Source: Holosporaceae bacterium
Lineage (GTDB): Bacteria; Pseudomonadota; Alphaproteobacteria; UBA3830
Assembly: GCA_031284365.1 (NCBI GenBank)
Contig: JAISZX010000037.1
Location: 1 to 49,408 of the forward strand
Direction of reading: 5' to 3'
DNA: 49,408 nt
Part shown: in pieces, positions 3,423-19,102 of the stretch
Position numbering within the stretch: position 1 is the first letter of the stretch
Layout of the letters: each line of letters begins with the position of its first letter
Made by a program: the position numbers and the translations under genes
Notes under the pieces: model-generated
Database searches by the model: none
The model's input: the letters and a program-made list of their open reading frames with translations, nothing else
Told to the model about the DNA's origin: nothing

Positions 3423-3857
3423 TTATTTTTTAGTAGCAGCATTTGCCTCGTTATTTAATAGTGAAACAATGATGGTTAGCTGATTTTTGTCATCAACTCG
3501 CGAATATTCAACTACTTCAGACAATTGTTTTACTATGAAAATACCTAATCCACCAATTTGGCGCTCTTCTATGGAAGAATCAACGTCAGGATCCACCTTA
3601 CCTAGAGGATCGAATGGAATACCACTATCAACTAATTTAATCGTGATGCGATCGCCTTTTTTATCTATTTCCAGTGTAAAATCATGCTCCTCTCCATCTG
3701 GATAAGCGTAACTGATAACATTTGTGACAACTTCATCTAAAATTAAAAGAATGTCATGAAATTTTTCATCAGAAATATCATTTTCTTTGCAAAAATCGCC
3801 AATACTGTCACACAATTTTCCGATTTCTTCTATAGTGTTTTTTATTTTAATTAGCAT
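3423..3857 (-). CDS. RsbW-like serine kinase / HATPase anti-sigma-type protein
   Basis: HATPase_c_2 motifs: ILDEVVTNVISYAYPDG and LVDSGIPFDP...GGLGIFIVKQL; overlaps the PP2C gene. Confidence 0.85.
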   Translation of the reverse strand: MLIKIKNTIEEIGKLCDSIGDFCKENDISDEKFHDILLILDEVVTNVISYAYPDGEEHDFTLEIDKKGDRITIKLVDSGIPFDPLGKVDPDVDSSIEERQIGGLGIFIVKQLSEVVEYSRVDDKNQLTIIVSLLNNEANAATKK

Positions 3858-5023
3858 GATGGTGTAATCCTCAATCTATATTTTAAACATAATGTTGTAA
3901 TATCATCGGATTGTGGAGCTCCATCTGTGAACTCTCTAATTGATGATAACAAAGCTTTTGTGAGTAAATTTGGCGATAACGTCGAATTTTCCCGTAAAGC
4001 TGCAGAAAAACGCTCGTAGTCATACTCTTCTCCATTTTTGTTAACTGCCTCTGGTACTCCGTCAGTATATAATAGGATCATTTCACCAGGAGAAAAAACA
4101 TGAAGATTATCTATAAATTCTACCTCCTCAAATATACCGAGCGCCATTCCTGGATCGCATTCTAAAAACTCTGGCTCTTGATTGGAACGGATAACGCCTA
4201 TCGGCAGGTGTCCGGCGTTTGTGTAAACTATTTCATTTTTTTCTATGTCCACTATTCCATACATTGCTGTAATAAACATTGAAGTGACGTTTTCTCCACA
4301 CAAAGTTTTGTTTACATTTTTAAAGCATTCAGCAGGGGATGAATAAATTTTCGAAAATGACTTTATTAATGTTTTTCCAATCAGTGCAAACATGGCAGCT
4401 GAAACATTTTTTCCGGATACATCAGCTATTACTATTCCGAGTTTTGTTTCGCTCAGCCAGAAAAAATCATAAAAATCCCCCCCGACTTCAGCAGCCGGCG
4501 TTGTATCAGCCCAAATTTCAATATTTCCCTTCTTTACTACATTTCCAGGAAGGATGCTTTTTTGAAGCTTAGCGGAAACATCTAATTCATCAGAAATTGC
4601 AGACAATTTTTTGTTTGTTGCTTCCACTTGTTTTAATTTTTCCACAACATGTATAGTTTTTTCCAACGTATCGGAAAAATCTTTAAAATCAATCGGCTTA
4701 ATAACGAAGTCATGAGCACCTCCACGCATGACGGCTCGCAAAGTGTTCATATCTCCGTAGGCTGATATAACAATTGATTTCATCAACGGATATTCTTTGC
4801 GTAGCTGAGCTATAAAGCTTATTCCGTCCATTCCTGCAACGTTTATGTCAGATACAAAAATATCAAAAGCCTTACCTTTTAATAAATTTAATGCCTCCTC
4901 AGGACCACTGGCAAAAGAAAACTCATAGAGTTTGCTTGAAATCTGATGACGAAACTTTTGCTGAAATAGATCTTGAGTATCTTCCTCGTCGTCCAAAACT
5001 AAAATTTTTGATAAAATCGCCAC
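3851..5023 (-). CDS. Response regulator receiver - PP2C/SpoIIE phosphatase fusion (RsbU-like)
   Basis: REC residues (LDDEED, VSDINVAGMDG, VISAYGD, KPID) followed by SpoIIE motifs (AEVGGDFYDFF, IADVSGKNVSAAM, LLYTDGVPEA, DDITTLCL). Confidence 0.92.
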   Translation of the reverse strand: MAILSKILVLDDEEDTQDLFQQKFRHQISSKLYEFSFASGPEEALNLLKGKAFDIFVSDINVAGMDGISFIAQLRKEYPLMKSIVISAYGDMNTLRAVMRGGAHDFVIKPIDFKDFSDTLEKTIHVVEKLKQVEATNKKLSAISDELDVSAKLQKSILPGNVVKKGNIEIWADTTPAAEVGGDFYDFFWLSETKLGIVIADVSGKNVSAAMFALIGKTLIKSFSKIYSSPAECFKNVNKTLCGENVTSMFITAMYGIVDIEKNEIVYTNAGHLPIGVIRSNQEPEFLECDPGMALGIFEEVEFIDNLHVFSPGEMILLYTDGVPEAVNKNGEEYDYERFSAALRENSTLSPNLLTKALLSSIREFTDGAPQSDDITTLCLKYRLRITPSC

Positions 5024-5083: not shown

Positions 5084-5782
5084 GTGAATATTTCCCAATA
5101 TATTCGAGAAATTGTGCTTGATACTGAAACGACAGGGTTAGATCCCAAAAACGGGGATCGTATCGTTGATATTGCATGTGTTGAGCTAGTAAATCACGTT
5201 CCAACGGGTAACACTTACCAGGTGTATGTTAATCCAGAACGAGAAATATCTCAGGAAGCAACTGCCATAACAGGAATCACAAATGAAATGTTGGTGGGAA
5301 AGCCGCTTTTTTGCGAAATAGCTGATGATTTTCTGGATTTTATAAAAGATTCAACGCTTGTTATACACAATGCAAAATTCGATATAATGTTCCTCAACAG
5401 TGAGCTTGAAAGAATTAATAAGCCGCTGCTTGATATTGAAAATACAGTAGATACGTTGCAGATAGTTCGGCAAAAATTTCCGGGGATACCGGCAAATCTA
5501 GATTTTCTTTGCAAAAAATTCGAGGTGGATGCGTCAGAACGTGTTACCCACGGAGCTTTAATTGACTGTAAGCTGTTGGCAGAAGTATACATAAATCTTC
5601 TTGGAGGACGTCAAAGCTCTCTTTTTTCTGAAAATAAGGAAAAAATGTCGGCATCTGACACTGTGATCCATAGGCGGAGAAAAGTTAATACAAAGCGTTT
5701 TTTTCTACCATCGGATGATGAAGTACTTGCTCACAAAGAATTTTTAAAAAGTATTACGGCTCCGCTGTGGGATGAACAATGA
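5084..5782 (+). CDS. dnaQ: DNA polymerase III epsilon subunit (3'-5' exonuclease)
   Basis: GTG start; DEDDh exonuclease motifs LDTETTGLDP, IHNAKFDIMFLN, HGALIDCKLLAEVY. Confidence 0.93.
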   Translation: MNISQYIREIVLDTETTGLDPKNGDRIVDIACVELVNHVPTGNTYQVYVNPEREISQEATAITGITNEMLVGKPLFCEIADDFLDFIKDSTLVIHNAKFDIMFLNSELERINKPLLDIENTVDTLQIVRQKFPGIPANLDFLCKKFEVDASERVTHGALIDCKLLAEVYINLLGGRQSSLFSENKEKMSASDTVIHRRRKVNTKRFFLPSDDEVLAHKEFLKSITAPLWDEQ

Positions 5783-6642
5783 TAAGCTTCTCAAGTTTTG
5801 CTAAATGGATACTCTGCGGAGAGTATTCTGTTGTACGAGGTGGAAAAGCGATCGCATTTCCACTGCGCAATTTTTCAAATTGTATTTCTTTCGAGAGAAA
5901 AGGTGATTTTTTTATAACAAATAGTGAAAAATCTTCGGAAGATACAATTTTCGCTTTACTTAGGATTGGATGTGAATTGCTAGGCATTCCATTAGAAAAA
6001 ATCTCAGGTCATATCGAAATAAAAAGCGATATTCCAATCCAAAGTGGGCTTGGGAGTTCAGCTGCAATATGCGCCAACATCGCTAAAATATTTCAACACA
6101 ACGGATACTGCGACGATGTGTTTACGCTTGCCAGATGTATGGAAAACTATTTTCATAGAAAAAGCAGTGGATTAGACATTGCTGTGGCTTTAGAAAATAG
6201 GCCGATTATTTTCAAAGAAAATAGTGTAATCGAATTTCTAGAACCGAGTTTTTGGCCAAATATGCTTCTCACGTATTCAGGAAAAAAATCAATGACTTTT
6301 GATTGCATAGGCATTGTTAAAGATCTTTTTTTAAGAAACGAAAAAATAGCTATCGAGTTGAATTGCCAGATGAATTTAGCATCGGATATGTGCGAAGACG
6401 CTTTCAAAAAATCAAATTTTCGCGAACTGAGGGATGGAATAATGCTGGCAAATGATACTTTTTACAAGTGGGGATTATATAACGAATCTATGTCTAATCA
6501 CGTGGAACAGCTTCTATCTGTGGGAGCGGTTGCTGCAAAGCCAATTGGATCAGGATTAGGTGGATATATCATAAGTTTATGGGAAGAATTCCCAGATGAA
6601 AAGCTTGAATTTCCCGGCATTTTACACATCAATCAGCCATAA
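5779..6642 (+). CDS. GHMP kinase, mevalonate kinase-like
   Basis: N-terminal KWILCGEYSVVRGGKAIAFPL, ATP loop IPIQSGLGSSAA, C-terminal KPIGSGLGGYIIS; overlaps dnaQ stop by 4 bp (ATGA). Confidence 0.75.
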   Translation: MISFSSFAKWILCGEYSVVRGGKAIAFPLRNFSNCISFERKGDFFITNSEKSSEDTIFALLRIGCELLGIPLEKISGHIEIKSDIPIQSGLGSSAAICANIAKIFQHNGYCDDVFTLARCMENYFHRKSSGLDIAVALENRPIIFKENSVIEFLEPSFWPNMLLTYSGKKSMTFDCIGIVKDLFLRNEKIAIELNCQMNLASDMCEDAFKKSNFRELRDGIMLANDTFYKWGLYNESMSNHVEQLLSVGAVAAKPIGSGLGGYIISLWEEFPDEKLEFPGILHINQP

Positions 6643-7921
6643 TATAAACAGTCCTTATCGAAGATTTATCAAAAATTTTTCTTGCAACTTCTAAAATGTC
6701 ATTTTGCGTAATTTCTGAGAATGGAAGTAAATTGTATTCAATTTGTTTGTCGATATGTGCGATGCTGGTAAAACCGTTGCGCAAACTTATCGCGATACTG
6801 TCTTGAAAAAAACTTAAATCTTTCAAATTTAATTTGTATTGATATGTTGATATTTTTTCTTCAGCATACTTTTTATATTTCTCCAGATCTTTTTTATCAA
6901 TGAAAATGAAAAAATAAAAAACGTTAGAAAGCTGCCTTTGTAGATAACCTGAATCAACGGAGTATGCGATGTTTTGTGATCTTAATCCAGCTTGAAAATC
7001 TCCAATTTTTCCATCAAATGAATTTTTCAATATTATGTAGGCCGTAGCTTTTTCTTTGTTACTCAGATTGTCCAAGCGAATTCCAGTTGCTATTCCAATT
7101 GCATTTCCCATGTTTTTTTTGTAAATAACTGAAAAATTATCTTCCGATGGATGACTTGCAGATATATCTAAATTTTGGGATTTTTCTTCACCTTTTTCGC
7201 GTAATCCATCAAATAGCGTTTCAATATATAATTCGATTTCTGACTGAGATACATCCCCAGCAAAAAAGACTTCAAGATTATCTTTTGAAAAATTGTTGTG
7301 TATAAAATCATCGATATCGTCTTTGGTGATGCTGTTTATGGCCTGAGCAGTGCCAGTATTATTCAACCCGTATCCATTATGTGGATACAACATATTCATC
7401 ATTTTATCAAAAAGCAATTCCTTTGGAGGCGATATTTCTGGGTCTAAAATTGCTGGATATCTACCTTTTACAAACTCCAAATCATTTTTTGAAAAAATTG
7501 GTTTTGAAAAAATCGGCGATAAAGACTTCAGCGCATCTGCAGCTTTATCTTTTAAAACAAAAAACGATAATTCAAAATCATCTCCAAAAGCATTAATGTT
7601 AAAATGACCTACGCCAAGTTCATTCAACTTCTCTTCGGTTTCTTCCGGAGACAACTCCCCAATTTTTCTGCATATGATAGTTCCAACAATAGCTGAAATT
7701 CCATGTTTCTCCTGGATGTTGTGCAGTACTCCAGCATTTTTAAATTTGCATTTTACATACACAACTTTATCACTCTTTACGCGCACTTGATACGCTTTTA
7801 CGCCGTAGCTATTTGCAGATTCAAAAATTTTGATAAACTGCTTTTCTTTTTTTAAAAAAATTGGAGCGGAAATCAAAACAATCAATATGACTGTAATTAT
7901 TATTTTCAATCTTCGCGACAT
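6629..7921 (-). CDS. M16 peptidase-like protein, catalytic motif absent, exported or membrane-anchored
   Basis: M16 fold-like pattern (FKNAGVLHNIQEKHGISAIVGTIICR where HxxEH would be); N-terminal hydrophobic segment; adjacent to three other M16-like genes. Confidence 0.75.
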   Translation of the reverse strand: MSRRLKIIITVILIVLISAPIFLKKEKQFIKIFESANSYGVKAYQVRVKSDKVVYVKCKFKNAGVLHNIQEKHGISAIVGTIICRKIGELSPEETEEKLNELGVGHFNINAFGDDFELSFFVLKDKAADALKSLSPIFSKPIFSKNDLEFVKGRYPAILDPEISPPKELLFDKMMNMLYPHNGYGLNNTGTAQAINSITKDDIDDFIHNNFSKDNLEVFFAGDVSQSEIELYIETLFDGLREKGEEKSQNLDISASHPSEDNFSVIYKKNMGNAIGIATGIRLDNLSNKEKATAYIILKNSFDGKIGDFQAGLRSQNIAYSVDSGYLQRQLSNVFYFFIFIDKKDLEKYKKYAEEKISTYQYKLNLKDLSFFQDSIAISLRNGFTSIAHIDKQIEYNLLPFSEITQNDILEVARKIFDKSSIRTVYIMAD

Positions 7922-7923
7922 TT

Positions 7924-9153
7924 CTACTTATCCGGTTTGTATTTTGTAACAATTTTCAAAATCAGATTTTGTTTTAAAATTCTTTCACCAAACAAATTAA
8001 ATTGTTTCGTATCGCATATATCTATTTTTTCATCTAATCCATTTAAATAATTGTCTCTTATTTTTAAATATACTGCGCGCAGATCAGACGATAAAAATTG
8101 TTGAGCATAACTATCAAGCAATTTTATTTTTTTTAAAGTATCTGGCGCGATTTCTCTTCTACAAATGCGATCTACGAAAATATCGTAAGCTTTTTGAAAA
8201 TCAACTAAAGATACGTCCGGCTTTGGGTAGAAGATGATTTGCCGTATGCAGTATCCGTTTGAAATTATATTGAAGCAAGAATAGTCAGAAATCATGGCAT
8301 TGGATTTTTTAAAAAAATCAAGTAGTTCACTATCAAAAATACGAAAAAACGCACGTTCCAACGGCATATCTTCGCTCGAGATTTTATAAAAATACCGTAC
8401 TGATCTGCTAACATACTTGTTTTCAATATATATCTCTTTAAAAATTTGATTAAGGCAAACATCATTGGATACAAATTCGCTTGGAGGTCGATTACATATT
8501 GTTGACTGCAATACTTTTATCAGATTTTTGTACCCAATCGCTCCACTAACTACTATAGACATATGGCATCTTTTATAATGTTTCTCAAAATATTTAATTA
8601 CATCGTCGAAAGTAATAGAAGCTAGTTTCTCTTCATTAAATACTTCGTCAACACTAAAATTTTTATACCGAATTTCGGTCAAAACTTTATTGTATACAGT
8701 ATTCTGATGACAATTATGCGCAAGATTTCCATTGATTACTAACTGTTTCTTCAGTACATTGAAGTTTTTCAAAGAAAATTCGTTTTCGCACATTATTTGA
8801 AGAAATTTAGTGATGTATTTTGGATTCATTTTTGCGATAACTTCTGTATATCGCCCAGAAACATTCACATCGTAGGATATTCCAAGATCCAACATTTTTT
8901 TATGAGTTATTTCATCGATAAAATTTTCTGCAATTATTGATGTAATGTTTTTTTGATGATCAGGAGCGTCAAACGATCCAGTGTGAAAAATCAATCCTAC
9001 TATAACAACAGGCATGCGAAAATCTTCGTATAATACTACATTAACACCGTTACTCAGTACACATTTTTGTGTTTTTTTTTCTGAACTGCGAAAAGAATTG
9101 CAATCAAATGATTGTGCGAAAAAGAGCAGCAAAATTGCGAGGAGTCTAATCAT
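7924..9153 (-). CDS. divergent M16 peptidase-like protein, catalytic motif absent
   Basis: VLSNGVNVVLYEDFRMPVVIVGLIFHTGSFDAPDHQKNITSIIAENFI aligns with M16 N-terminal domain without HxxEH; signal-like N-terminus; operon context. Confidence 0.65.
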   Translation of the reverse strand: MIRLLAILLLFFAQSFDCNSFRSSEKKTQKCVLSNGVNVVLYEDFRMPVVIVGLIFHTGSFDAPDHQKNITSIIAENFIDEITHKKMLDLGISYDVNVSGRYTEVIAKMNPKYITKFLQIMCENEFSLKNFNVLKKQLVINGNLAHNCHQNTVYNKVLTEIRYKNFSVDEVFNEEKLASITFDDVIKYFEKHYKRCHMSIVVSGAIGYKNLIKVLQSTICNRPPSEFVSNDVCLNQIFKEIYIENKYVSRSVRYFYKISSEDMPLERAFFRIFDSELLDFFKKSNAMISDYSCFNIISNGYCIRQIIFYPKPDVSLVDFQKAYDIFVDRICRREIAPDTLKKIKLLDSYAQQFLSSDLRAVYLKIRDNYLNGLDEKIDICDTKQFNLFGERILKQNLILKIVTKYKPDK

Positions 9154-10481
9154 TTTTCGCCTCCTCCTATCACCAAAAACAGCATATTATTTTCGTCCAG
9201 GATTTCATTAGCGATAGCATTGACTTCTTTCAACGAAACTTTATCGATTTTCTCTATTGTATCTGATAGCATCATTGTTCCTAGTCCTTGCAATTTTCTG
9301 TTAAAATAAAAACTGCAAATGGCGTCTGAAGTTCGCAACTTAACCAGCATTGATCCTTTGATATTGTTTTTTGCGAATTGCAATTCTGATTCGTTTATAC
9401 CTTTTTCTCGCAATTCTTTCAGAATTACTTTCAGCAATTCTATGGTGCTTTGAACTTTAGAATTGTCTGTTTTCAAAGATCCAAAAATATAGCTTGCGTG
9501 ATTCAAATCAATAGTGCTTACACCTCCGCTATATATCAATCCTTTTTCCGTACGCAACCGTGATAGAATTCTTGCTTTAAAAGCACCGCCTTCTCCTAGG
9601 ATTCTATACAATAGCAACGCAGCATACCGTTTTGCAGATAGAGGACGCTCAGTTTTTAGCACGAAAAAAACGGAGCTTTGAGGTCCATCTGCGTAATATT
9701 TTTTCGTTTCTGATTTTTGCTGCAGCGTAACGTCTTTAATTTTATCTTCGGATTTTGTTCTTTTTTCGATTCCTGAAAAAACTTGATCGACCAACGCAAT
9801 AGCTTCTGCCTCAGAGATGTTGCCATATACACACACTTCTGCGTTGCTGGTTACGAGAAATATTGCTTTATAATTTTTCAGATCTTTAATTGATAACTTC
9901 ATGAAATCTTCCGGATAACCAAACTCTCCACTTTCGTAGTCATGCAATTTAAAAATTATTGATGGAAGAATCGAAGATGATGCAATTTGTTCTGGATTTG
10001 CAGCATGATTTTGAATGAAGCACATTACGCTATTCTGTATTATTTTGACTTTATCTTCTTCAAAATTTGGGGATTTTATTGCTATATTAAAAAGAGTGGC
10101 GGACTGCTTTAAAACTGTTGTTGGAGCAGTGAGAGAAAAATAAAAATTGTCCATATCACTTTTACAAAGTATATTAGCGGACAAATCTTGGCAGGCCTCT
10201 GCGAATTTATCCTTGGAGTACGCTCCCGTGCCGCAAAAAACTGTTGTTGAATAAAATAATGGAAGTCCAACTTTACTTTTCTCCTGATGAGCTGAGCCGG
10301 CATTTCTAAAAGCGATTTTCATATGTACCAAATTGGAGCTGCTATCTTTGATAAATAAAAAATTGATGCCGGCGGAACTTACTAACTCTTTTAGATCACT
10401 AGCATTTGAAATGCTACAACAAAATACGGATATAACAATTGAAAAAAGTTTTTTATTCACGATCGTATCCCTTTGGTACAA
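9150..10481 (-). CDS. M16 peptidase-like protein (non-catalytic subunit type)
   Basis: RNAGSAHQEKSKVGLPLFYSTTVFCGT lacks HxxEH; C-terminal RLRTEKGLIYSGGV motif typical of M16 proteins; signal-like N-terminus. Confidence 0.85.
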   Translation of the reverse strand: MYQRDTIVNKKLFSIVISVFCCSISNASDLKELVSSAGINFLFIKDSSSNLVHMKIAFRNAGSAHQEKSKVGLPLFYSTTVFCGTGAYSKDKFAEACQDLSANILCKSDMDNFYFSLTAPTTVLKQSATLFNIAIKSPNFEEDKVKIIQNSVMCFIQNHAANPEQIASSSILPSIIFKLHDYESGEFGYPEDFMKLSIKDLKNYKAIFLVTSNAEVCVYGNISEAEAIALVDQVFSGIEKRTKSEDKIKDVTLQQKSETKKYYADGPQSSVFFVLKTERPLSAKRYAALLLYRILGEGGAFKARILSRLRTEKGLIYSGGVSTIDLNHASYIFGSLKTDNSKVQSTIELLKVILKELREKGINESELQFAKNNIKGSMLVKLRTSDAICSFYFNRKLQGLGTMMLSDTIEKIDKVSLKEVNAIANEILDENNMLFLVIGGGEK

Positions 10482-11793
10482 CTCTTAAAATGGCGCATGG
10501 ATCCTGCGAAAAAACCTGCGACAAAAGATCGTTGCATTCTTTTTCAGAAATTGACTGAATTATATCATCAATCGATTGAATTTCATCCATAGAGTATCCA
10601 CACACAAGCAACCATCCAAAATAATTCGACATACTCACAATGTCATCTTTTTTATATGCAAGTGAAAGAAGATATTGTCGTTTTACAGCGTCCAATTCTG
10701 ACTTTGAGATTCCAACCTCAACCACTTTCTTTTTTAAATGCCGCCATATGTTTTCGATTTCATATAAATCATCTATTGAGGAAGCCGAAAATTCTACTGA
10801 AGCAATATCATATTGAAAAATCCTATCAGTGTATCCGAACGAAATTTTAGATGCTCGATTCATTACATCTTTCAATATTTTTTTTACAAAAAAGGTTGGG
10901 CGATTTATAGCCATAAACGCTACTTCAAGCGCTATAGCTTTTCTCAGATTTTGCTTGGATAAAAAAGGTACTGCATATAAATACTCCACCAAAGAAAGCG
11001 ATCCATTTTTGGGAGATCCACATTTTACTTCTTTTTGGTATATCGTTGATTCTTTTTTTTCTGAAATGTTACAGATTTCTTTCTGAGGAATTTCTCCAAA
11101 ATATTTTTCTGCTAGCTTTTTTATTTTTTGTAAATCAAAGTCTCCGGAAATAACAATTACAGCATTATTCGGCGCAAACCATTTGTCATGAAATTGATAT
11201 AAATCATCTTTTTGTATGGATTCTATTTCGTGCCTCCATCCTATGATTTCTATACCCCCAATTTCGCGATTAAAAATATTGGCAAGGAACGACTCTTGTG
11301 CTTCACCGTTTGGATCATTATCGATTCTCATACTGCGCTCTTCAAGAATTGCATTTTTTTCCGATAGAAAAGCGTTATCATCGATGTCAAGCGAAGTCAT
11401 TCGCATAGCTTCATGTTCAAAAACTGTTTCTATATTTTCTTTTGGAACTACTTCATGAAAACAAATTACATTGATAGAAGTGAAAGCATTTCTGAATGCT
11501 CCAACGTCTTCCAAAAAGTTGTTGAATTCCATCTTGTTGGAAGCAAATGCCATATGTTCCAGATAATGAGCCACTCCAGATCTAGAAATCGCATCATCTT
11601 TCGATCCACATTTATACCAAATCGAGAAGAAAATAATGGGAGATGATTTTTTTTCGATACAAATAACTCTAAGTCCATTTTTTAAAATAAAATCAGCCGC
11701 GCTATATCTCGCTTGTGCAGAAAAAATCATAAAAGCAGAAAATAGCGTGACAATTATTTTAAAATTATATTGGATATTTTTCGAGCAAATCAC
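10453..11793 (-). CDS. M16 family zinc metallopeptidase, catalytic
   Basis: KCGSKDDAISRSGVAHYLEHMAF (HxxEH) plus downstream EKNAILEERSM glutamate; signal-like N-terminus. Confidence 0.93.
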   Translation of the reverse strand: MICSKNIQYNFKIIVTLFSAFMIFSAQARYSAADFILKNGLRVICIEKKSSPIIFFSIWYKCGSKDDAISRSGVAHYLEHMAFASNKMEFNNFLEDVGAFRNAFTSINVICFHEVVPKENIETVFEHEAMRMTSLDIDDNAFLSEKNAILEERSMRIDNDPNGEAQESFLANIFNREIGGIEIIGWRHEIESIQKDDLYQFHDKWFAPNNAVIVISGDFDLQKIKKLAEKYFGEIPQKEICNISEKKESTIYQKEVKCGSPKNGSLSLVEYLYAVPFLSKQNLRKAIALEVAFMAINRPTFFVKKILKDVMNRASKISFGYTDRIFQYDIASVEFSASSIDDLYEIENIWRHLKKKVVEVGISKSELDAVKRQYLLSLAYKKDDIVSMSNYFGWLLVCGYSMDEIQSIDDIIQSISEKECNDLLSQVFSQDPCAILRVVPKGYDRE

Positions 11794-15213: not shown

Positions 15214-17166
15214 ATGTGCAGCGGTAAATTTCAAAATATTTTTTATGATTTTTGCGAAAGCGAAAAGAATAGATTCCCGAATCTTATTCCGGTTGGAATT
15301 GGCATAGGGATCGCTATTTATTTTTTTCTTGATAATGAACCAAATTTTTTATTAAGCTCAACGAGCTTCATTCTATTACTGTTGTTATCAGTATACGCAA
15401 AAACATACAGATGTTTTTTTTGCGTTTTACTGACTGTTAGTTTTGGTTTTTTTATTTCGCAGTTGCGTACGAAAACTGTAGATACGTTTATGTTATCAAA
15501 AAAAACAGATGAATTCACTTCGCTGGTTGCTACAGTGGAGTTGTGTGAAAAGACAGAGAAAGGTTTAACCTTTATCGTCGATAATGTGCGGAGCAAAAAG
15601 TACAAAAACTTAAATAAATTGCATCTCACATGGCGTGGAAAAAAAGCGATGAAGTCAAAAGTTGATTACGTTCCTGGGTCAAAAGTTTTATTTCGAGCAA
15701 TTTTATCTCCGATAAAAGGACAGGCTTTTCCTGGCGCTTACGACTTTAAAAAACAGCAGTATTTCAAGAAGATAAGTGCTCGCGGATTCGTAGTATCTCA
15801 GCCCAAAATTCTAAAAAAACCTAAGCGAACGTCTATAAAATTATTTATTGAACAATTGCGTCATTATTTGGATAAAAAGATTGAGCAATACCTTTCAGCA
15901 GATGTTGCCGCAGTCACAAAAGCTCTCATTACTGGAAATAGATCTGGAATATCAAAGAAAATTCGAAGAAATTTCTCAAATTCTGGAACGGCACACTTGC
16001 TTGCCATATCTGGACTTCATATGGGGATAATTGGATTTTTTATTTTCTGGGTCTTTCGAATTTTTTTCTGCTGTTTTTCGCGTATTTCAATGTTTTATGA
16101 TGTAAAAAAAATTTCAGCCATAATTTCATGGGTGGTCGTACTATTTTATCTGCAAATCTCTGGAGGCTCAGTACCATCTTTGCGGGCGTTCATAATGCAT
16201 ACAATTATTATATTGGCAATTTTGCTAGAAAGATGTGCGCTAACGATGCGATCAGTAGCGATTGCCTCAACAATTATCATGACATTCTCACCGGAAGTAA
16301 TTTTATTTCCAAGTTTTCAGATGTCATTTGGAGCAGTTATTGCTATCGTCGCTTTTTACGAACACTGCTGGGATTTTTCAAAATTTTTTAAAACAATATT
16401 TAATATTGTAGCTACAACTTTAGTCGCATCCATTCCAACGGCAATATTTTCTATGAGTATTTTCAATCAGTTGACGTTAAATAGTATTTTAGCAAACGTT
16501 GTATCGGTTCCTCTGATGTCATTCTTCATTATGCCGATAGCTGTTATGGCTTTGTTTTTCATAATGTTCGATTGGGCGCAGCCTTTCATTATTTTGATGG
16601 GATACGGAGCTCAATTACTCATAAAAATTTCTGAGTTATCTGCGCAATTGCCAGGATCTCATTTTACAATGGCTGCTCCATCAGCGACAAATATGGCTAT
16701 TTTTATTTTTTCAGGATTAATACTGACTTTATTCCACCATAAAATTCGTTTTCTTGGAATCATCGGATCAATCGTTGGTGGAATTTATTATTATCTAAAT
16801 CCGACTCCGGACGTTTTTATTTCGCAAAATTCAAAGGTAATCGGAGTAAAAATAGATGATGCAGCTTGTTTTAATGACCTAAGCCATTTTCGATTCATTG
16901 CTTCGGCATGGGTTAAATCAATTGGGTTAGAAAAACGCAAAAGATTCAGCTCTGATATTTGCAAAAAATGTATAAAAAAAATCGATGACGACACTTATCT
17001 AATCAGTTCGAAAGACAAAAATGTGATAATCACAGACGACAAAAGTTATTTAAAAAAATATCCAGATGCCATTTTTTTAGATAAAAACGACAAGTTCGCT
17101 AGGATATTTTATCTTCATCCGCGTAGCTGCGTGTCGAATCGATCGAAAAATCGCCCGTGGAGTTAA
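15214..17166 (+). CDS. comEC: ComEC/Rec2 family competence membrane protein
   Basis: DUF4131-like N-terminus and competence domain ALITGNRSGISKKIRRNFSNSGTAHLLAISGLHMG; many TM helices; no metallo-beta-lactamase domain seen. Confidence 0.9.
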   Translation: MCSGKFQNIFYDFCESEKNRFPNLIPVGIGIGIAIYFFLDNEPNFLLSSTSFILLLLLSVYAKTYRCFFCVLLTVSFGFFISQLRTKTVDTFMLSKKTDEFTSLVATVELCEKTEKGLTFIVDNVRSKKYKNLNKLHLTWRGKKAMKSKVDYVPGSKVLFRAILSPIKGQAFPGAYDFKKQQYFKKISARGFVVSQPKILKKPKRTSIKLFIEQLRHYLDKKIEQYLSADVAAVTKALITGNRSGISKKIRRNFSNSGTAHLLAISGLHMGIIGFFIFWVFRIFFCCFSRISMFYDVKKISAIISWVVVLFYLQISGGSVPSLRAFIMHTIIILAILLERCALTMRSVAIASTIIMTFSPEVILFPSFQMSFGAVIAIVAFYEHCWDFSKFFKTIFNIVATTLVASIPTAIFSMSIFNQLTLNSILANVVSVPLMSFFIMPIAVMALFFIMFDWAQPFIILMGYGAQLLIKISELSAQLPGSHFTMAAPSATNMAIFIFSGLILTLFHHKIRFLGIIGSIVGGIYYYLNPTPDVFISQNSKVIGVKIDDAACFNDLSHFRFIASAWVKSIGLEKRKRFSSDICKKCIKKIDDDTYLISSKDKNVIITDDKSYLKKYPDAIFLDKNDKFARIFYLHPRSCVSNRSKNRPWS

Positions 17167-19102
17167 GTATTTCTGTTGCTGCTCGTTTTGGATCTCCACG
17201 AATGATGTTGATTACCTTTTCAAAAACTTTTTTTTGCTCTTCATATTTTTCTGAACGCAGTATTTTTTCTACGCAATCAAAAATATTTTTCGCAGTGCAA
17301 TCATTTTGTAGAAGTTCAGGAACTACGACCTTTTTCGATAGCAAATTTATTAAACAAACATTTTTTACCTTTATTAAAAATTTTACAATCCAATATGTAA
17401 TGAGAGAAGTTTTGTAAATCGCCACAAAAGGAAGTCCAACTCGCGCTAATTCAATTGTGACAGTTCCGGACGCAGCAACAGCAATATTCGACGAATAATA
17501 AGCTAAAATTTTTTGCCTTTTATCTGTAATGATCAGTGGCTTTTGCGGCCAGTCATTGGTCATCTTATATATTTTTTGTTCTAAGCTTTCTATTGTTGGA
17601 ATTATAAATTTTGCATTTTTCCGTTTTTTGATCATCAGCTTCACAAATTCTTTAAGTATTGGCATATGGTAATTTATTTCGGACACTCTGCTGCCTGGCA
17701 GTAAAGTCACAACGAAATCCTCTTTTTCATTTTTATGAATGAAATTGTGAAATTCTTTCAATTGTTCGGTATTTGGCCGGTCGAAATCAGAGTCTACGGC
17801 AATTGGATGGCCAACAAATATTGTCTTTAATCCGTACTTTTCAAAATATGCAGGTTCAGAGGGAAACAAAACCATTAATTTATTTAAAAATTTATGCATA
17901 GACTTTGCTCGCCATCCTCTCCATGCCCAAACAGGAGGAGCAACATAGTGGACTATCGGAATTTTGCATCCCATTTTTTTTACTTTTTTCGCAACGCGGT
18001 GCGTAAATCCAGAAGAATCAATTGTGACGATAACGTCAGGTCGATAGCTGCAAATTGCTTTAACAGTTTTCCTTATCAATCTCTTTACACGAAAAATTTT
18101 TCCGATAACTTCCAAAATTCCGATTATAGATAACAGTTCGATTGAAAATAATTTTTTGAGTCCGGATTTCTCCATGCACGCTCCGCCGACTCCAAAAAAT
18201 TCTACCTTATCTTTTCGAATTTCATAAATATCATTCATCAATTTTCCGCCGAGATAATCTCCCGATGCTTCACCTGTAATGATAAAAATTTTAGAAGCAA
18301 AAACATTAATTGATTGGATAAAAATATTCAACTCATTGGCACGTTTGATGACGTCTTCCTTATTAATCACAATACATCTGTTGGCCTCGATAACAATTCC
18401 ATCAAATTTATTTTTGTGAAGTATTTCAATAGTTTCAACACCAATTGTTGGAAGATCCAAGCGATCATCTTGCTGAGGTTTTGAAATTTTTATCAAAATT
18501 CCTCCACCATTTAATTCGGCTGCAGATTTTTCTATTAAAGCGTTTGTTCCATCAATATCCTCTTTGCCAACAACTTCCCCGTTACAAACAACTACAGCCT
18601 GTCCTATATCGGAAAGTCCAAGCTCTTTTGCAGCTGCTATGCCAATATCGATATCGTCGTAATCCGTTTGCAATGGTTTTCTGTCGGAAAAAATTCCAGC
18701 TGGTAGAAAAATATTCTTCAACAAACTTGTACCAGAAATTAGTTCGAACCCTTCATATTTTATTAGATCAGCAATGGCTCGCAACAGTGCATCGTCTCCA
18801 GCTCCGATGGTCTTTCCGAGCCGTAGCAACCAATATCTAGCTTTTTTATCCATGGTTATCTGATTGAAATCCGGCCGTCTTACTTTCCCTGCAAAAATAA
18901 TTTTTTTAACATTATTTTGTTTTAAAAAATCAACAGCCTTGCCTATTTCTCCGAAATTTATCGTAATGCTTGTAACGCTTGGCCAATTTTCTGTATTGCA
19001 AAATCCATTCATAAAGACTAAACAAAAATCAAGTCCATTTTCTATGCATGCGCGAGCAATTAAACGAGGATAATTACCTCCACCACAAACTACACCAATC
19101 AT
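17099..19102 (-). CDS. LpxI-LpxB fusion: UDP-2,3-diacylglucosamine pyrophosphatase + lipid-A-disaccharide synthase
   Basis: Residues 1 to ~268 LpxI-like (MIGVVCGGGNYPRLIA, GKTIGAGDDALLRAI, PTIGVETIEILHKN); from ~271 LpxB-like (KIFIITGEASGDYLGGKL, VHYVAPPVWAWRGWRAK, LLPGSRVSEI). Confidence 0.9.
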   Translation of the reverse strand: MIGVVCGGGNYPRLIARACIENGLDFCLVFMNGFCNTENWPSVTSITINFGEIGKAVDFLKQNNVKKIIFAGKVRRPDFNQITMDKKARYWLLRLGKTIGAGDDALLRAIADLIKYEGFELISGTSLLKNIFLPAGIFSDRKPLQTDYDDIDIGIAAAKELGLSDIGQAVVVCNGEVVGKEDIDGTNALIEKSAAELNGGGILIKISKPQQDDRLDLPTIGVETIEILHKNKFDGIVIEANRCIVINKEDVIKRANELNIFIQSINVFASKIFIITGEASGDYLGGKLMNDIYEIRKDKVEFFGVGGACMEKSGLKKLFSIELLSIIGILEVIGKIFRVKRLIRKTVKAICSYRPDVIVTIDSSGFTHRVAKKVKKMGCKIPIVHYVAPPVWAWRGWRAKSMHKFLNKLMVLFPSEPAYFEKYGLKTIFVGHPIAVDSDFDRPNTEQLKEFHNFIHKNEKEDFVVTLLPGSRVSEINYHMPILKEFVKLMIKKRKNAKFIIPTIESLEQKIYKMTNDWPQKPLIITDKRQKILAYYSSNIAVAASGTVTIELARVGLPFVAIYKTSLITYWIVKFLIKVKNVCLINLLSKKVVVPELLQNDCTAKNIFDCVEKILRSEKYEEQKKVFEKVINIIRGDPKRAATEILNSTGDFSIDSTRSYADEDKIS

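Follow-up and report, generated by a model that had tools for sequence, protein, structure and literature searches.

The window, a stretch of 49,408 nucleotides from a Holosporaceae bacterium, is contig C38 of a draft genome of 1.44 Mb in 133 contigs. Of the six M16 genes in this genome, four form a block in the window and the other two lie singly on contigs C76 and C49. All genes of the block are on the minus strand, and we call them M1 to M4 in the order of their reading. M1 (10453..11793, 446 aa, GTG start) encodes a catalytic M16B subunit and M2 (9150..10481, 443 aa, TTG start) its non-catalytic partner. They are followed by two further M16B paralogues, M3 (7924..9153, 409 aa) and M4 (6629..7921, 430 aa). 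M1 and M2 overlap by 29 nt, M2 and M3 share a stop/start overlap of 4 nt (9150..9153), and a gap of 2 nt separates M3 from M4. An earlier note on this DNA had described four overlapping or abutting same-strand ORFs of 409-446 aa, and its coordinates proved exact. In relatives, the M2-M3 junction is mostly the same 4-nt overlap and the M3-M4 junction mostly a gap of 1-2 nt or again a 4-nt overlap. Such tight junctions suggest coupled translation, and the four proteins are probably co-translated in similar amounts. Scans for promoters and terminators returned nothing beyond chance level.

The end of M4 is overlapped by 14 nt by a convergent gene of a GHMP kinase (5779-6642), whose nearest match is mevalonate kinase (113.6 bits with TIGR00549, under its cut-off). 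Elsewhere in the window, a response-regulator receiver is fused to a SpoIIE-type phosphatase domain (3851-5023), and a 667-aa ORF (17099-19102) matches LpxI in its first part and LpxB in its second, an apparent LpxI-LpxB fusion.

All four proteins of the block belong to M16 by sequence or fold, as the earlier note had it, M3 with less force than the others. Pfam domain PF05193 is matched by M1 (7.7e-19), M2 (7.4e-25), M4 (2.3e-12) and, just below the cut-off of 23 bits, M3 (5.8e-4, 20.2 bits); PF00675 matches M1 and M2 only. Among structures in PDB, M1 is closest to 3amj_C, the active subunit of a Sphingomonas heterodimer (E 5e-44), and to 3ami_A. M2 matches 3gwb_A and 3amj_B, the latter being the inactive subunit, and the profile of M3 finds M16 chains at 4.7e-11. 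The structure models of M3 and M4 were built from five-sequence alignments and deserve modest confidence. The AlphaFold2 model of M4 (pLDDT 68) has 3amj_B as its top Foldseek match, with TM 0.74. The model of M3 is poor (pLDDT 58); its listed Foldseek matches are all M16 proteins, at TM 0.45 and with poorly predicted domain placement. Neither ORF failed to fold as M16, an outcome that would have refuted the earlier note. None of the proteins belongs to the YfmF/YfmH families of NCBIfam, the best score being 66 bits against curated values of 285 and 250.

The catalytic residues are distributed very unevenly. M1 possesses two M16 domains, the HxxEH motif in the form HYLEH (H76, E79, H80) and a distal glutamate (E151/E152), as expected of an M16B peptidase. 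HxxEH is found in 31 of 33 copies of M1, the remaining two being truncated by contig ends, and together with the distal glutamate it is invariant across 26 aligned orthologs. M1 is the only gene of the block with this combination, just as the earlier note claimed. M2 has the features of a non-catalytic partner: it adjoins the catalytic gene, has two M16 domains, lacks HxxEH and keeps the R-x6-Y motif (R/Y, within LRTEKGLIYSG) in 33 of 35 orthologs. In M16 enzymes, the active site is completed by the R/Y pair from the opposite half (PMC12731061). M3 has NITSIIAENF in place of the motif, and none of its 35 orthologs contains HxxEH; all zinc ligands needed for an active M16 peptidase are gone. 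M4 has HxxEH in 0 of 28 copies and R-x6-Y in 4 of 28, so that the residues of a functional M16B partner are largely missing as well, and in the alignment some copies retain an LR..Y remnant. The loss of zinc ligands in M3 and, largely, of R/Y in M4 leaves the second M16 pair dead.

The earlier note read the block as one catalytic and three non-catalytic subunits. Profiles and trees speak against this framing. In hhalign comparisons, M3 is closer to M1 than to M2 (140 vs 57) and M4 closer to M2 than to M1 (155 vs 65). Compared with outgroup pairs, M4 is strongly of the non-catalytic type (276 vs 107) and M3 weakly of the catalytic type (170 vs 157). The tree groups M4 with the non-catalytic M2 type (99/98) and leaves M3 outside that clade. 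When M5, the gene on C49, is included, M1, M3, M5 and outgroup catalytic subunits are divided from M2, M4 and outgroup non-catalytic subunits with support 100/99. M3 has a long stem, and it attaches near the divide of the two types with weak support (77/45). A single clade of M2, M3 and M4, which would derive all of them from M2, was rejected (AU p 0.012 and 0.0017). A recent duplication of M1 into M3 at the level of the family was disfavoured to mildly rejected (p 0.0275 and 0.036). The corresponding duplication of M2 into M4 remained compatible with the first tree (p 0.30), and a common clade of M3 and M5 was not rejected either (p 0.35). M1 and M2 represent the catalytic/non-catalytic M16B pair that is usual in alphaproteobacteria. 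The non-catalytic type of M4 is firm, given its M16 fold and its nearness to inactive subunits; the catalytic type of M3 has good support, though it is less firm. As judged from sequence comparison, the order catalytic-type, non-catalytic-type, catalytic-type, non-catalytic-type is therefore well supported, and 1+3 gives way to 2+2.

The earlier note also inferred from hydrophobic N-termini that all four proteins are exported. All of them do look exported: M1, M2 and M3 have N-termini resembling signal peptides. M4 differs in appearing anchored rather than cleaved. Under simple rules based on hydrophobicity, charge and presence of an AxA-like site, its N-terminus shows a stronger hydrophobic core and, behind it, a basic segment with a mean net charge of +1.7; 3 of 28 copies have an AxA-like site, versus 11 to 19 of 33-35 in M1-M3. 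Because of the basic segment and the usual lack of an AxA-like site, M4 likely keeps its N-terminus as an uncleaved signal anchor.

The same block is carried by Holosporaceae MAGs (Alphaproteobacteria, Holosporales) in the GTDB contig collection, which was scanned with the M1 alignment as a query. Of 41 genomes of the family, 34 have an orthologue of M3: all genomes of the genera g1 (12/12), g4 (12/12) and g3 (5/5) and five of the nine in g5; g2 and g6 have none. Such recurrence shows that the block is not a product of chance. M1 accompanies M3 in every genome whose contig extends far enough (that of G027 begins inside M2), and both are absent from the same 7 of 41 genomes, including G012, G015, G016 and G020, which are 91-97% complete. 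Since four of the seven block-less genomes belong to g5, a genus otherwise with the block, M1-M2-M3 were likely lost jointly at least once. The order M1-M2-M3(-M4) is constant, and flanking genes differ between and often within genera. One genome, G063, contains two divergent M1-M2-M3 blocks on different contigs (L207, L208), possibly because the bin (contamination 4%) includes a second organism. Elsewhere in the order, families have no more than a pair of the M1-M2 type. Among 385 sampled members of the class, no sequence outside the family exceeded 67 bits with the M3 profile or 116 bits with the M4 profile, versus more than 500 bits for true members in the window's genus.

M4 is less constant. 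In G013 and G062 it sits on a separate contig; in G014, G018 and G024, all of which have M1-M3, it was not found. In G018, a neighbour of the relocated M4 of G013 is present, on a contig without M4. A 435-aa gene that follows M3 in three genomes was considered as a diverged M4; it showed no match to M16, and on inspection it looks like XseA. In G017, conversely, M4 lies at a contig end without the rest of the block, probably because of an assembly gap in this 75% complete genome. M4 is thus not strictly needed by, or linked to, the rest of the block.

M3 and M4 evolve fastest of the four, with mean identities of 0.31 and 0.40 versus 0.50 for M1 and 0.46 for M2. Pairwise dN/dS is nevertheless low, 0.09-0.34 for M3/M4 and 0.05-0.26 for M1/M2, the values being rough and several pairs having high dS. 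Even in the genus of G018 the constraint on M3 persists (0.12-0.16). Distances of the four block genes are correlated with each other at 0.93-0.96, which may mirror the species tree only. M3 and M4 are under purifying selection and are not decaying, as follows from their intact ORFs, low dN/dS, joint presence and absence, reshuffled flanks and coupled junctions. The paired M16B protease in its 2+2 arrangement is real, well conserved and selected.

In many of the alphaproteobacteria searched, an M16 pair is located between ileS-lspA and pgi. In one alphaproteobacterium of another family (G051), complete M16 pairs with HxxEH are found at two sites, lspA and a second locus (L196, L197). Genomes of the Holosporaceae contain a single M16 gene, M5, at the ileS-lspA-pgi site. 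In the window's genome it is an orphan M16 gene of catalytic type without HxxEH (G000, C49: 3574-4878, L103). M5 is present in most genomes of the family, including those without the block; the match in G016 consists of two pieces only. With M5 at the ancestral site and M3 in the block, the lineage harbors two kinds of dead catalytic-type M16, and its live pair now resides elsewhere.

A live pair followed by a retained dead copy suggests that an inactive pair of partners is built into the protease. We imagine its working as follows. M1 and M2 would form a periplasmic clam-shell zinc endopeptidase, an active heterodimer that degrades peptides. M1 would contribute HxxEH and the distal glutamate, M2 the R/Y pair and the other half of the chamber. 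M3 and M4 would build an equivalent dimer on the same plan, dead for want of the zinc site in M3 and of R/Y in M4. Upon association of the two dimers, a pseudo-symmetric heterotetramer might arise, held at the inner membrane by the N-terminal anchor of M4, and the dead pair could serve the live one as a scaffold, docking site or substrate receptor. We propose the association of dimers because M1, M2 and M3 are present or absent together, because the genes are coupled, and because a tetramer has been reported for the Sphingomonas relative SPH2681/SPH2682, with two of each subunit (PMC12731061). We see an even chance that the two tandem pairs are joined into such an M4-tethered heterotetramer, in which the dead pair scaffolds or feeds the live one. 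More tentatively, the protease might be obligately four-subunit, with the M4-anchored dead pair as the receptor or scaffold half of the tetramer. The occasional absence of M4 weakens the case for a strict tetramer, and M3 might also act directly with M1/M2.

M3 and M4 might instead form a dead heterodimer that works independently, for instance in peptide binding or as an envelope scaffold comparable to the cores of complex III, and be merely co-expressed with M1/M2. The loss of catalysis in both halves and the apparent anchor of M4 are in keeping with this. So is the retention of orphan dead M5 where the block is absent, so that dead M16 proteins can act alone in this lineage. Against it, M3 was not found without M1, both are missing jointly from seven genomes, of which four belong to a genus that otherwise bears the block, and M3 persists where M4 was not found. 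We therefore find this explanation rather unlikely. Partners could also be exchanged: M1 would then be the sole catalytic half, combining with M2 or M4 into different chambers, and M3 would be a decoy or regulator. M4 is indeed of the non-catalytic type and has the LR..Y remnant in some copies. With R-x6-Y in so few M4 copies, however, an M1/M4 enzyme would be impaired, and no clear role is left for M3, the most constantly linked of the extra genes, which makes the proposal improbable.

The earlier note had named a pair accompanied by pseudogenes as a case that would overturn it, and fast evolution and lack of catalytic residues would fit a plain M1/M2 protease with M3 and M4 as decaying duplicates. 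This did not hold. Broken copies of M3 or M4 next to the pair were not seen in any relative, and ORFs that are intact across dozens of genomes, a dN/dS clearly below 1 and survival of the block through rearrangement contradict decay, so we give the idea very little credence.

M16 enzymes serve as a textbook case of one chamber made from two halves. A lineage that retains an entire second, dead pair next to the live one, in a genome both small and rearranged, would illustrate how a pair of pseudoenzymes turns into a lasting component of a bacterial protease. This would parallel the path from processing peptidase to core proteins of complex III, and a single operon would make that step accessible to experiment. 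Live and dead M16B subunits are known to pair, and the cores of complex III include non-proteolytic M16 subunits (PMC12731061). The block resembles mitochondrial processing peptidase and these cores in its live and dead subunits; unlike there, no respiratory complex genes adjoin, and live and dead pairs occur in one bacterial four-gene block. A literature search of partial coverage found no description of such a block. AlbE/AlbF and TTHA1264/TTHA1265 likewise consist of a bacterial catalytic M16B protein and a non-catalytic partner, but comprise two proteins only, a second dead pair not having been described. The closest comparison is SPH2681/SPH2682 of Sphingomonas sp. A1 (PDB 3amj), an M16B heterodimer whose active subunit is similar to M1 and whose inactive subunit is similar to M2 and M4 in sequence or fold. 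Adjacent pairs of the same kind are found at ileS-lspA in many of the alphaproteobacteria searched. The Holosporaceae block differs from them in its location away from the lspA locus, and from SPH2681/SPH2682 in the second, dead pair that stands in line behind the live one.
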